DNA of 64,000 nucleotides from Calothrix brevissima NIES-22. GTDB lineage: Bacteria; Cyanobacteriota; Cyanobacteriia; Cyanobacteriales; Nostocaceae. Under the pieces are notes generated by a model, which saw only the letters and a list, made by a program, of their open reading frames with translations, was not told where the DNA came from and did not search any database. Position numbers and translations under genes: made by a program. Below, piece by piece: positions 9,138 to 15,196 of this stretch. The stretch spans positions 4,401,083 to 4,465,082 of the forward strand of contig NZ_AP018207.1 of assembly GCF_002367995.1 (NCBI RefSeq), written 5' to 3'. Position 1 is the first letter of the stretch. Every line of letters begins with the position of its first letter.

Positions 9138-9181
9138 AAAATTTACTTAACAAAATTTACTGAACAAAAAATTTACTTAAC
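9138..9181. repeat. Three direct repeats AAATTTACTTAAC
   Basis: Three consecutive copies of AAAATTTACTTAAC, the middle with one change and the last with two extra As. They lie in the 8976-9559 gap upstream of both divergent transcripts (ferrochelatase-like gene and helicase operon). The spacing of 14-16 bp does not match whole helical turns, so a protein-binding array is only possible. Confidence 0.6.
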
Positions 9182-9400
9182 TGTAGATATGTAGAGCCAG
9201 CATAGTGTAACCAATAGCACATAACTGCCTTGCGATCGCCATAATTGCAGATCACCCTTCTTGGCTGACGGTACTTGTGTTGAAGCTGAAGCAGTAAGTA
9301 GGTCAACTAAGCTACTCCATCAGGTTAACAGGCCTCAAGATGGGTTGGAATAGCTTGAAATTATATACAATTTGTAATAATTATACATTCCTAACCCAAA

Positions 9401-9443
9401 CACCTCTGAAAGAAGTTGAGTTTTGTTACTTTTTTCAGAGGTG
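9401..9443 (+). promoter_or_regulatory. Leader hairpin upstream of the helicase operon
   Basis: CACCTCTGAAA (9401-9411) and TTTCAGAGGTG (9433-9443) are perfect 11-bp complements around a 21-nt loop. An in-frame TTG at 9416 lies inside this loop, which argues that translation starts further down, at ATG 9560. The hairpin could be a regulatory leader or an operator. No copy was found at the other end of the operon, so it does not look like a transposon end. Confidence 0.55.
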
Positions 9444-9559
9444 TACTCATTGCAGAAATAAAATTTTTTCGATGTAACACTGAGGATTTTCGCTCTCATA
9501 AATTAATTATTAGTTTGTTAACCATCTCATATTTAAACTTTACTAAGCTCATTAGGTAT

Positions 9560-12500
9560 ATGGAAGAAATCTTAAACGAATACTGTAAACAAGCTAATTC
9601 TGGACTACTTCTATTGAGTATGCCAACTGGTTTTGGGAAAACGTACAATGTCCTAAACTTTATTTATTCTAATTATCAAGAATTTGCTGCCCAAAACCGG
9701 AAAATTATTTTTATTACTAACCTCAAGAAGAACCTACCAATAAATGAACTACGAAAGCGGTTTATTCATGATGATAAAGGAAATGAATTTAATAAACATG
9801 TTCTTTTTATTAATTCTAACGTTGATACAGTTATTGAAAATCTTCTGGAGAATGATAACAAAATACCTGAACAGTTTAAAACAGAAATTTATAAGCAATT
9901 AAAATCTCGAATAATAACGGGCCAAAATAGTTCACTTCCAAAAGAAGTTCAAGTTATGCTAAAAAGCGAAATTCGGAAAGACCTAGAGCCAGCATTCCGC
10001 AAAAATATTCAGAAAATATTGAAAGAAAATTTTAAAAATAAAAAAGCCCGTTTATTAGCTATAAAAAATGAACAAGATTACCAATGGATTGGTAATTTAT
10101 ATCCGGCAGTATTTACAGATGAAAGAACTGTCCTGTTTATGAGTATGGATAAGTTCATTGCTCAAAACACGACACTGGTTGAGCAATCATATTACTTTAC
10201 TGAAAGATTGATTGAGAAATCTCTGATTTTTATTGATGAGTTTGATACTACGAAAGATGCTGTTCTCAACAATATTATTCAAACAGGCTTGCGTCATAGA
10301 GTCGATCTTCTTGATTTATTCTTGAATATTCATAACCACCTTATGCAAAACGAATTTCCTGAAAGGCTGCTTCAGGAATCTGGATGGCTTAAGAAAAAAT
10401 CTTACGGAAAAGATTGGTTATCTCCACGACAAAAAATTGAATCATTTCGAGATAAAGCAAGTTACATATTTAAAACATATCAATTACAACATATCTGTAA
10501 ATCTCATGATGACTTTTTGACAAAAACGAGAAACTTTCTTTTTTATGACTACCAATTTCATAATGTACTAAATCGTCATCAGCGTATCAAAATTATTGCA
10601 GATGTAGAAAACCGTACAAATTGGATTAAGTCTTTTGATATTAGAACAACAGAACCTGGTGTAGACATACAAGAGTTGCTGAGTAAGATTACCGGATTTC
10701 TAACCTATTTTCAGACAGGAATTAAGCATCTAGCTAATAATTATCGACGTTTAAAAGAAGAAAATAAAAGTAATCAAGAAGGCTTTCCACTCGAATCGGC
10801 TATTAAAACAGTTCTGAATAATTTTCTCCTTGATGAGCAAGATGTCGCATTTTTGACCAATAAAATTCTAGAAGAAGACTTACAGTATGGCTTGCAAAGC
10901 GACAAAAGAACAATCCAAAGTCAGATTTTTTATGATACAGGCTTTCGATATCACGATATCGTCGATAGTGATGAGCATGATACATTATCGAAGATATATA
11001 TGTTCAACTTTAGCCGTACACCAGAATCTTTTCTGGCGGGAGTTTGCTCACAAGCTATGGTCGTTGGTATTTCTGCAACTGCTGGACTTTATACAAATAT
11101 TGGCAATTACGATCTAGAGTATCTCAAATCCCATTTAGGAGATTCATTTATAAGTCTTAAAGAAGATGCTCTTATTAAGCTCAAAAACGCATATTCTCAA
11201 GCAACTCAAGGATACGATCAAGTAGATATACAAACTGAATTTATTGGAACAGAATCACAGCAGGAAGCAATCAAACAGCTTGAGGAGCTTTTGCGTGACC
11301 GAGAAGCAGCACAGGCTTTATGGAACAAACTTAGCCATCAAATAACTAATGATGATGATAAGAAGAGTGTTGAATTTTCATTTTGTCGTTATGTCAGGGC
11401 GTTAACTGCATGGAAATATTTTCTGGATCATTCTGATTGTCATGCCTTTCTTTGTCTCTTCAGTAAATTACCAAAGCCTTCCGATCCGAAGTTCGATCTG
11501 AACATATTGTATAAATATGCGAAATACTTATTAGATGACAAAAAAGATGCCATTGATGGTAGTGTGGAAGATACGATTTTCTTACTTAGTGGAGATAAGT
11601 TTGAAGAAAATAAAGAGAAACTGCTGAATGCTCTGAAATATAATAAACGCCGATTCATTATCTCTGCCTACCAAACAATCGGAGTTGGACAGAATTTACA
11701 ATTTCCTATTCCTTCTGAATTAGAAGCAATACACATTAATAGCTTGGCAAAAAATTCGGATATGGATATTAATGGCATTTATCTAGATAGCCCAACAAAT
11801 CTACTTGTCAATATTTATGGGAAAAATATCGCAGATGATGATTTTATCAAATACATTTTTCAATTAGAATTCTTGCGGGAAAATGGAGCTTTTTCACTTA
11901 ATACATTTAAGAGCAAGTTAGATAGAGCATTTCAGAGATATATAGGAAGATACCAGCCTAAACAAAAGGCTGAGGACTTCATAAACTTATATAATACAGG
12001 TGCTTATTCACGCTTTTTGAATAAAACCATTATCCAAGCAATAGGTCGAATATGTCGAACTAATATGAAGGCTCCAACAATCCATATTCTGGCTGATGCG
12101 TCAATCCGAAAACACTTAACTGGTTTTGCTTTACCAAAAGATGTAATTCCTGTTTGTGAATATGCTGCTCTGTTAAAATCAGCAGGTGAATCAATATGTC
12201 CATCTGAAGATTTAATAGAAGCACAAAACCGAGCATCTCTTAGAAGTCATCAAAATTCTGCTAACATACGCCGCCAACTGAATACTCCTTGGACACATAA
12301 GAGTATTAAAGCATGGCAGGATCTGAGAGAACAAACTCTCCGTCAACCTGCTATGGCAAAAGAGTCAGAATGCAATCCTAACTGGAATAGTTATTACCTA
12401 AAATTACCAAAAATTGCCGATTCATATTATTTTTCACATGAAAATGACTATGATGAGATTGAAGTTTTCTTTTCTGATGGATACGGGAAAAAAGAAGTTA

Positions 12501-13015
12501 AAGAAGTGAGTGAAAGAACTTCCCGTCTTTCAGAGTTAATGAAAATTGATCTACTACATAAATTGTTCATTGATTCTGGCTGGGCAACAGCATTTCCAAA
12601 ATCTAAACTTATGCTAACACCCCCAATGTTCAACAATATTTATAAAGGGGCGTTAGGTGAAGTATGTGGAAAACATATTTTTGAAAATTTATTAAATACT
12701 CACTTACTAGAACTGGATGTGAATGAATTTGAGTGTTTTGACTTTAAAACAGAGCAGAAAATTTATGTAGACTTCAAATTATGGAACGATCAGATTGCAG
12801 TGCCATCTGAAGAATTACTTGATAAAATTATGGAAAAAATGGCATTTGTCGGTGCAGAAAGGATTTTTGTTATCAACCTTCTTGGTACTTCAAACACACC
12901 TTTTCGTCCAATTTTGTCATTTAGTGGAAAAATTGTTGAAGTTCCTTATCTCTGTAAAAATGATAAAATCGATAACTCAGCATTGAACTTTATTCAGGGT
13001 GAATTTTGTAAATGA
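9560..13015 (+). CDS. SF2 helicase with C-terminal PD-(D/E)XK-type nuclease domain (putative defence protein)
   Basis: From ATG 9560 the protein has 1151 residues. Helicase motifs in order: Walker A MPTGFGKT (21-28), Walker B IDEFD (D226), a helical insert of about 280 residues, motif III GISATAG (about 504-510), a motif V-like segment SAYQTIGVGQNLQF, and motif VI QAIGRICR (826-833). The last 130 residues look like a restriction-endonuclease fold: GALGE (E1034), ECFDF (D1061) and YVDFKLW (D1071, K1073), then strand ERIFVINLL. The frame remains open to a TTG at 9416, but that lies in a leader hairpin. The stop overlaps the start of the next gene by 4 bp, so the two are translationally coupled. 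The gene is AT-rich and has no HIP1 site, which suggests transfer. I do not recognise a named family. Confidence 0.75.
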   Translation: MEEILNEYCKQANSGLLLLSMPTGFGKTYNVLNFIYSNYQEFAAQNRKIIFITNLKKNLPINELRKRFIHDDKGNEFNKHVLFINSNVDTVIENLLENDNKIPEQFKTEIYKQLKSRIITGQNSSLPKEVQVMLKSEIRKDLEPAFRKNIQKILKENFKNKKARLLAIKNEQDYQWIGNLYPAVFTDERTVLFMSMDKFIAQNTTLVEQSYYFTERLIEKSLIFIDEFDTTKDAVLNNIIQTGLRHRVDLLDLFLNIHNHLMQNEFPERLLQESGWLKKKSYGKDWLSPRQKIESFRDKASYIFKTYQLQHICKSHDDFLTKTRNFLFYDYQFHNVLNRHQRIKIIADVENRTNWIKSFDIRTTEPGVDIQELLSKITGFLTYFQTGIKHLANNYRRLKEENKSNQEGFPLESAIKTVLNNFLLDEQDVAFLTNKILEEDLQYGLQSDKRTIQSQIFYDTGFRYHDIVDSDEHDTLSKIYMFNFSRTPESFLAGVCSQAMVVGISATAGLYTNIGNYDLEYLKSHLGDSFISLKEDALIKLKNAYSQATQGYDQVDIQTEFIGTESQQEAIKQLEELLRDREAAQALWNKLSHQITNDDDKKSVEFSFCRYVRALTAWKYFLDHSDCHAFLCLFSKLPKPSDPKFDLNILYKYAKYLLDDKKDAIDGSVEDTIFLLSGDKFEENKEKLLNALKYNKRRFIISAYQTIGVGQNLQFPIPSELEAIHINSLAKNSDMDINGIYLDSPTNLLVNIYGKNIADDDFIKYIFQLEFLRENGAFSLNTFKSKLDRAFQRYIGRYQPKQKAEDFINLYNTGAYSRFLNKTIIQAIGRICRTNMKAPTIHILADASIRKHLTGFALPKDVIPVCEYAALLKSAGESICPSEDLIEAQNRASLRSHQNSANIRRQLNTPWTHKSIKAWQDLREQTLRQPAMAKESECNPNWNSYYLKLPKIADSYYFSHENDYDEIEVFFSDGYGKKEVKEVSERTSRLSELMKIDLLHKLFIDSGWATAFPKSKLMLTPPMFNNIYKGALGEVCGKHIFENLLNTHLLELDVNEFECFDFKTEQKIYVDFKLWNDQIAVPSEELLDKIMEKMAFVGAERIFVINLLGTSNTPFRPILSFSGKIVEVPYLCKNDKIDNSALNFIQGEFCK

Positions 13016-15120
13016 GCATTATTACAAACAGACTAAAGATAGATTTTCATGTTGATGCTATTGAACGAGACTTTGTTTTTATTCGCTTAAAACGAGAAAA
13101 AAAGGGTAAATGGTGGGGGGCGGAAGAACTAGACTACATTATTGGTAATGACTATAAAGCTATGGCAGTTGGGTATGCTCAATATGCTTATGCTATGTTT
13201 GACAAAAAATCAAATAATATTTATGAATTACGTCAAAAACTGGGAACAGATCCTAAATTTGCTAATGTATCTGCAATTGAAGTAAAGCCCCAGGCTGTTT
13301 ATAACGGAAATGATGAGTGCATATGTGAGGTCACACTTGCTCGATTATTAATAAATTCTTTAGGTGCATCACGCTCAAGATTTAAGGATCTACATTTCTC
13401 AAATCTCACTGGTACATTATTGAAAGTGCCAGCATTAACAGATAAGCTTTATGATCCAATTGGTATCGCTGAGATAACTATTAATCGTATTGATGGGAAA
13501 AAAACCGAATTCTTACTGAATGTTAGTGTAGCTAGTTATCGCAAAAAAGTTGCTATTTTAAAAGAATACAAAGGCGAGGAATTAAGAAAGATTCTTAAAA
13601 GGCCTGAATATGTCTTCCATAGTGGTACAGCATCCCTAAGAAGGTGGCTTCCTTCTGACGGGAAACAAACAGATGCTACTAAGTCCTATATAAAATGTAG
13701 TACAAAAGGAAAAAGGCGTCATACTAATTTTATTGAATTTGGAAGTATTAAAGAATTTGAAAACAGCCGAGCCGGCATTTTCCATCAAGCCTTCAAAAGT
13801 ATTCAAGAACATTTATCTGAATACATGAGTGTTGATTTTGCATCTGTTGAAATCGACGACAGCGTTGAACTAACGAACACCTTGCTTAAAAAGCCACAAC
13901 AGCTTCATTCAATACTTGATGGGCAACCAATAAACATAATAGATACAGTTCAGAATGAAGATTCTGCTGAGTTAGCAAAAAACTTAAAAGAATCACTTCT
14001 TCCTTACATCACTGATGAAAAGCTAATTACTTTTGGTAAACGTGATAAGAAAGGCGCTCTCAATTTTAGAATTATACATGATGCCGAATTTTACGAAAAA
14101 ATGGGGCAAGAAGATGAATATCTCGCTTCTACAGATATATTTCAGCGCCAACATCTTACAATTGAATCAACCATAAATATTTCTGATTCTATTGTTAAAA
14201 CAAGCATCGAAGAACTACTTATAAAGCGGGATATTAGCTCTAAAAAATTAAATCTTTTTGAGTGGTCTAAACTTGGATTGAAAGGAGTTTGGACTTTTGC
14301 AGCTTGGGATGAAGAAGCAAGTCATGTGATTTTTATGGAAATTCAGCCAAATGGAAATTTTGAATTTCATACAAGAGAGAAACGAAACATATTCAATTGG
14401 GAAAGATTTGACAAATATAAAGAATTAATGACTGAGACTGAGTCTGAAGATAAAATCAAAACACTCGAAGGTCTTGTGATTTCTGATACGGGTGATATAA
14501 ATCAGATATTCCGTACTGATGAAATCACCATTCCTGATCTTTCCAAAATTGAAACTATTATCAACGAAGTCGAGACAAAGCTTCCTGAAGATCAGCGAAC
14601 GGGAAATGCTTTGGCGGATTTGCTTGAAGAATTTATGGCTGAAGTTTCCACGAAAGATAACGACAAACTTATATTCTTCACTGAAGAATTACGCAGATTA
14701 GGTAATAACGAACTAGACAAAAGCAGTTTCCGGAAACTGATAAATGAAAATTTAGGAAAAATCTCAAATGTTACTAATGAATTACGTAGCTATCTTCTGA
14801 ACAGATATGATATTAGGCTAATTTTTTCCAAACAGAAGGAAAACCTTGAAGATTTATTTAATGCTTCTCTCCATATAAATTATTTTGGCGAGACCGAAAA
14901 AGAAGCATATTATTTTGTGGGAGAGAGAAGTGTAAAAGATTATTCTTTCAAAGATGCTTGCCATCTTCGTAAAATCGTTGCAGTGGATGAGTCAAAACTG
15001 ATATTTAGACAACTCCTTAAAACTATGGATGTTGATTTTGTCCGCACGGGGCAAAGTACCGTAGTCCCTTTTCCCTTTAAATACATTAGGGAGTATCAGA
15101 ATTTTGATATTCCTCAATAA
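13012..15120 (+). CDS. Unknown 702-residue partner of the helicase-nuclease
   Basis: This gene starts inside the stop codon of the helicase-nuclease gene (ATGA overlap), so both proteins are probably made together and may form a complex. No domain is recognisable. The first ~230 residues alternate short strands and charged loops with many Lys/Arg (VFIRLKREKKGKWWG; STKGKRRHTNF). A conserved-looking centre contains LNFRIIHDAEFYEKMG near residue 350 and QHLTIES near 382. Residues 470-620 are helical and acidic. The C-terminus ends VVPFPFKYIREYQ. I see no Walker, DEDD, HNH, PLD or HEPN signature. The size is like a long prokaryotic Argonaute, but no PIWI catalytic tetrad is visible, so that remains only a test hypothesis. 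Base composition matches the upstream gene. Confidence 0.7.
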   Translation: MSIITNRLKIDFHVDAIERDFVFIRLKREKKGKWWGAEELDYIIGNDYKAMAVGYAQYAYAMFDKKSNNIYELRQKLGTDPKFANVSAIEVKPQAVYNGNDECICEVTLARLLINSLGASRSRFKDLHFSNLTGTLLKVPALTDKLYDPIGIAEITINRIDGKKTEFLLNVSVASYRKKVAILKEYKGEELRKILKRPEYVFHSGTASLRRWLPSDGKQTDATKSYIKCSTKGKRRHTNFIEFGSIKEFENSRAGIFHQAFKSIQEHLSEYMSVDFASVEIDDSVELTNTLLKKPQQLHSILDGQPINIIDTVQNEDSAELAKNLKESLLPYITDEKLITFGKRDKKGALNFRIIHDAEFYEKMGQEDEYLASTDIFQRQHLTIESTINISDSIVKTSIEELLIKRDISSKKLNLFEWSKLGLKGVWTFAAWDEEASHVIFMEIQPNGNFEFHTREKRNIFNWERFDKYKELMTETESEDKIKTLEGLVISDTGDINQIFRTDEITIPDLSKIETIINEVETKLPEDQRTGNALADLLEEFMAEVSTKDNDKLIFFTEELRRLGNNELDKSSFRKLINENLGKISNVTNELRSYLLNRYDIRLIFSKQKENLEDLFNASLHINYFGETEKEAYYFVGERSVKDYSFKDACHLRKIVAVDESKLIFRQLLKTMDVDFVRTGQSTVVPFPFKYIREYQNFDIPQ

Positions 15121-15196
15121 GTATATAAGTTGTATTTATAAGCAATAAAGTTTTAACAATGCTCAACCCTAGCTCTGAACCAGAGATTGAAGATAG

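Follow-up and report, generated by a model that had tools for sequence, protein, structure and literature searches.

DdmDE is a described two-protein system that acts on plasmids. In the portion of the review PMC12409362 covered here, DdmE is presented as a DNA-guided pAgo that lacks catalytic activity and recruits an autoinhibited, dimeric DdmD, which travels on single-stranded DNA and makes nuclease-dependent cuts, with plasmids as the target. Whether other host nucleases complete plasmid destruction is left there as a question. Plasmid targeting by DdmDE is likewise described in the covered part of PMC12904381, one passage of which swaps the names D and E.

Here, we examined a two-gene operon within a 64-kb stretch of cyanobacterial DNA, hereafter the window. 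The operon belongs to the described system DdmDE, and its novelty lies mainly in where it was found. It is very probably a chromosomal DdmDE of a Nostoc-group cyanobacterium that, by analogy with the solved systems, would act on plasmids as they do. This places a named, mechanistically studied anti-plasmid system in filamentous cyanobacteria, where its insertion site is clear and relatives carry the empty site. No mention of DdmDE in Nostoc or methanogens was found in the literature covered, most of it short of full text.

The first gene encodes a DdmD protein

The ORF1 protein matched the DdmD model of PADLOC (E-value 3.9e-43, residues 191-1121) and, in the PDB, DdmD of L. casei (9ix4, 1.8e-53) and the V. 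cholerae DdmD chains (~5e-40). With a profile built from six relatives, these PDB matches reached 2.4e-83 and ~2e-62, respectively. Up to E = 1, PADLOC returned for ORF1 only DdmD and a weak Cas3c match (0.0075), and for ORF2 only DdmE; none of the Hachiman, Gabija or type I/III restriction models, to which the original prediction had likened the pair, matched either protein. Models for ApsAB may be missing from the 2023 PADLOC-DB. In Pfam, nothing exceeded the cut-offs for either protein, the ORF1 match to ResIII (0.28) falling below its own.

The helicase motifs of the window's DdmD are MPTGFGKT (residues 21-28), DEFD (226-229), GISATA (503-508) and QAIGRICR (826-833), and its C-terminal PD-(D/E)XK domain carries NIYKGALGE (1026-1034), FD (1060-1061) and YVDFK (1069-1073). 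We compared these across 35 DdmD-like proteins, including the window's own and one cut by a contig end. The Walker A GK(T/S), QAxGRxxR, the GE of GALGE and (Y/F)xDFK were kept in all 35, and DEFD in 34. Because they are conserved across this set, the motifs are not chance occurrences.

The second gene encodes an Argonaute-like DdmE

The ORF2 protein gave a weak PADLOC match to DdmE (8.6e-5, 19 bits, residues 242-697). Searched alone against the PDB, it matched DdmE of 9iw3 (1.8e-9) and of V. cholerae (~0.003), and a profile from seven relatives matched 9iw3 at 5.9e-24 and 8u0j at 1.7e-8. An AlphaFold2 model computed with 32 relatives reached a pLDDT of 85.3 and a pTM of 0.83; an earlier model from 7 relatives (pLDDT 47.0) was set aside. 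In a Foldseek search of the PDB, the first six ranks were all DdmE chains (9ixm, 9iw3, 8u3k, 9bgk, 9ezy, 8u0j), with E-values from 7.5e-37 to 3.9e-25 and TM-scores of 0.55-0.71 by query length, while other Argonautes trailed at 1.3e-10 and weaker. The model thus has the long-Argonaute-like fold of known DdmE proteins, at an identity of 16-18% over the fold alignment.

Within an alignment of 32 DdmE rows, Q380, D407, K690 and E694 never vary, and 31 rows have K405; the Q380/K405 pair may be what is left of an Argonaute MID pocket. Across residues 420-702, E694 is the only column that is acidic in at least 90% of these rows, so the family has no conserved PIWI catalytic tetrad. Without conserved catalytic acids, DdmE should be the guided sensor of the pair and DdmD the effector.

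What the original prediction had read from the letters is confirmed, and its interpretation is partly supported. Its two coupled reading frames, the Walker A/B, SAT, QxxGRxxR and GALGE/FD/YVDFK motifs (most of them kept throughout the 35 proteins) and its two-gene helicase-nuclease defense module were all recovered, the last through the PADLOC, PDB and fold searches, which led to DdmD and DdmE. Its statement that the second protein has no recognizable domain holds for Pfam but not for PADLOC, the PDB profile or the fold comparison. The claim of an undescribed system does not stand, because the operon is DdmDE, an already named system whose target in the covered parts of PMC12904381 and PMC12409362 is plasmids rather than phages.

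Operon architecture and gene order

The two genes overlap by the four letters ATGA at 13012-13015 (Table 1). An alternative in-frame TTG start at 9416 would extend DdmD to 1199 aa. The GC content of 9401-15120 is 33.5%, versus 40.8% for the window. HIP1 (GCGATCGC) occurs 46 times in the whole window and not once in 9401-15120, where ~4.5 sites would be expected at the outside rate (P ~0.01 for none); the AT-richness and lack of HIP1 noted at the outset are therefore borne out.

A palindrome lies upstream of ddmD, with identical letters in Nostoc sp. T09, and the surrounding stretch 9160-9555 is single-copy in the genome. The palindrome is a possible control element. Promoter-like sites were in no excess over shuffled sequence (31 versus 27.0, sd 5.2), nor were terminator-like sites (3 versus 2.6).

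Table 1. Coordinates of the operon, its surroundings and related genes (window positions unless a locus is named)
Feature	Position	Strand	Details
ddmD (ORF1, SF2 helicase with C-terminal PD-(D/E)XK nuclease)	9560..13015	+	1151 aa, start ATG
ddmE (ORF2, Argonaute-like)	13012..15120	+	702 aa; 4-bp overlap with ddmD
Palindrome 5' of ddmD	9400..9444	.	arms 9400-9416 and 9428-9444, 17 bp each, 94% complementary
Insert without counterpart in six genus-mates	9150..15129	.	~5.98 kb; homology breaks on both sides
Methanogen UvrD-PDDEXK genes	L051:2837-5968, L053:2566-5880, L104:8370 onward, L106:2350-5628		

The two-gene order is conserved among relatives. Setting aside the window and the plasmid locus L088, 33 distinct loci encode a complete or almost complete DdmD; DdmE or its start adjoins it in 28 of them, and in 28 of the 31 with room downstream. 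The exceptions are L055 and L066, whose contigs leave no room, and L062, L064 and L069, which have no DdmE.

These last three are clostridial DdmD-like genes (L062:5935-10991, L064:6001-10368, L069:5986-14682) without a detected DdmE. They form one clade (support 100/100) in which GISASS replaces GISATA. On their 3' side lie HsdM (L062), a D12-class methyltransferase (L064), and a DUF4357 protein with HsdR and HsdM (L069).

Insertion beside hemH and patchy distribution

Comparison with genus-mates supports horizontal acquisition of ddmDE by insertion beside hemH. In five of them (G001, G002, G003, G005, G007), homology ends at window position 9150 and restarts at 15129, the gap being filled by 134-274 bp of different sequence. 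In the sixth (G004), homology ends at ~9153 and restarts at ~15190, and the left edge is not sharp because of an extra 33-bp match at 9193-9225 (78.8%). The insert holds ddmD, ddmE and ~400 bp upstream; no integrase was seen in these ~6 kb. hemH and a hydrolase-like gene flank the operon at a distance of 6221 bp, versus 376, 378, 381, 449, 499 and 683 bp in the six genus-mates without DdmD, the last value being an overestimate because the hydrolase match begins only at residue 32. Nostoc sp. T09 (G006; L034, L047) carries the operon at the same place, with both genes open and identities of 91% (DdmD) and 88% (DdmE). A second site, beside another gene, is occupied by an intact pair in Nostoc sp. 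CHAB 5824 and by remnants in G021 and G041. The window's flanks encode a ferrochelatase, a hydrolase-like protein, an MFS protein and a TPP enzyme and are not a defense island; a Uma2-family gene is the sole restriction-like neighbor among the flanking proteins scanned.

DdmD was matched in 11 of 98 relatives searched and DdmE in 9 of 386 cyanobacterial genomes, one of them a piece (own genome included in both counts), and a sampling scan of genome contigs gave at least 31 loci. Together with the empty sites, this patchiness agrees with the mobility first proposed for the module.

Methanogen relatives and a linked UvrD-PDDEXK gene

Among the matches listed, pairs from Methanolobus, Methanosarcina and Methanoculleus (L051-L053) share 54-57% (DdmD) and 49-50% (DdmE) identity with the window's, and so the same module is present in archaea too. 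We built a DdmD tree of 35 rows without the proteins of V. cholerae and L. casei, midpoint-rooted for drawing only. In it, the cyanobacterial rows group with those of methanogens in a single 14-row clade (100/100). Within this clade, the methanogen rows branch between L018, which is cyanobacterial, and the remaining rows (98/97), a position that makes transfer of ddmDE between bacteria and archaea likely.

In four of six methanogen genomes with a DdmE match, a UvrD-PDDEXK gene adjoins ddmDE or, in L106, a ddmE remnant. In two of them (L051, L053) it lies upstream and reads the same way, and in the other two it is convergent; L052 has no such neighbor, and the contig of L105 ends after ddmE. 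Two genomes of this survey (G592, G582) have one in-frame TAG within the match. Among 199 genomes of the same methanogen class, UvrD-PDDEXK was found in 36 (E <= 1e-100) and DdmE in 5, which makes the adjacency unlikely to arise by chance. The view that UvrD-PDDEXK is merely a core gene was rejected on these counts. The adjacency may, however, stem from a shared insertion hot spot.

A bolder reading makes the cyanobacterium-methanogen clade a DdmDE subtype of its own, one that has passed between bacteria and archaea and has another guide supply, in which the linked, RecB/AddA-like UvrD-PDDEXK would make the DNA guides of DdmE in methanogens and an unlinked host enzyme would do so in cyanobacteria. 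We consider this unlikely as a whole; if true, the unsolved origin of DdmE guides would become testable.

Proposed function, alternative targets and decay

For guide type, complex formation, plasmid target and activity in the host, we infer from the solved systems how the window's pair would work. The catalytically dead, long-Argonaute-like DdmE would carry a short DNA guide and pair with plasmid DNA. Guided DdmE would then recruit DdmD, which would otherwise rest as an inactive dimer. DdmD would load on the displaced strand and move by its SF2 motor, and its PD-(D/E)XK domain would cut that strand, leading to plasmid loss. Such activity may help explain poor plasmid maintenance or transformation in some cyanobacterial strains.

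The same architecture could instead serve mainly anti-phage or general foreign-DNA defense here, since the systems that have been tested, those of V. cholerae and L. casei, are distant from this clade and the literature covered in part holds no tested cyanobacterial DdmDE. We regard this as quite improbable: DdmDE targets plasmids in the covered parts of PMC12904381 and PMC12409362, ApsAB is described in PMC11096173 as lacking activity against eight phages, and the window sequence holds no phage pointer.

DdmD was found in five of 72,556 plasmid records, one close and the other four at 22-30% identity, and DdmE in one; 50,697 phage records gave no match. The close case is plasmid pn2 (292 kb) of Nostoc sp. 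UHCC 0926, which carries a ddmDE pair (L088:8001-13564, NZ_CP117770.1), an anti-plasmid system on a plasmid, with both genes annotated as hypothetical proteins. The genome of the window itself includes eight secondary contigs (21-208 kb), presumably plasmids, so ddmDE does not keep the strain plasmid-free. Large plasmids are no contradiction, because DdmDE is described as acting primarily on small ones (PMC12409362).

Broken or partial ddmDE loci occur in five cyanobacteria and one Butyrivibrio (L019, L020, L021/L074, L022, L061, L075). That the window's copy is itself decayed and inactive is very unlikely. Decay does occur among relatives: four of the 11 DdmD matches are pieces only (G021, G024, G034, G041), that of G038 has one stop, Nostoc sp. 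JL33 (L061) is broken and the Butyrivibrio locus (L075) is interrupted. Against this, both window frames are open with all motifs intact, and Nostoc sp. T09 also keeps both genes open.

Comparison with known systems

The E. coli ApsAB system, which belongs to a sister family, resembles the window's operon in joining a helicase-nuclease to an Argonaute-like protein against plasmids (PMC11096173). That the operon is of ApsAB type, with an ApsB keeping its MID motif, is hardly credible: although the covered part of PMC11096173 places ApsA and DdmD on one continuum and reports ApsAB-like systems in some cyanobacteria, the ApsB motif it gives (Y-x3-K..QG..K) is absent from the window's DdmE, which has no QG at all, a loose form of the pattern fits only L077 among 32 DdmE rows, where it lies at residue 193, far ahead of the MID part, and the best fold matches are DdmE chains. 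It is the motif description and the DdmE fold that set the operon apart.

Among DdmDE relatives, the methanogen pairs fall in the same 14-row clade as the operon but have UvrD-PDDEXK upstream in two of three (L051-L053). V. cholerae DdmDE (8u3k, 9bgk, 9ezy, 8u0j and others) shares the two genes, the SF2 and PD-(D/E)XK DdmD and the DdmE fold. It sits in a defense region of a pathogenicity island, as described in PMC12409362, whereas the window's operon is a chromosomal insert between metabolic genes, and the DdmE proteins are 16-17% identical over the fold alignment. L. casei DdmDE (9iw3, 9ix4, 9ixm) is still distant, with 17-18% DdmE identity over the fold alignment, but is the top match of both window proteins by sequence and by fold.
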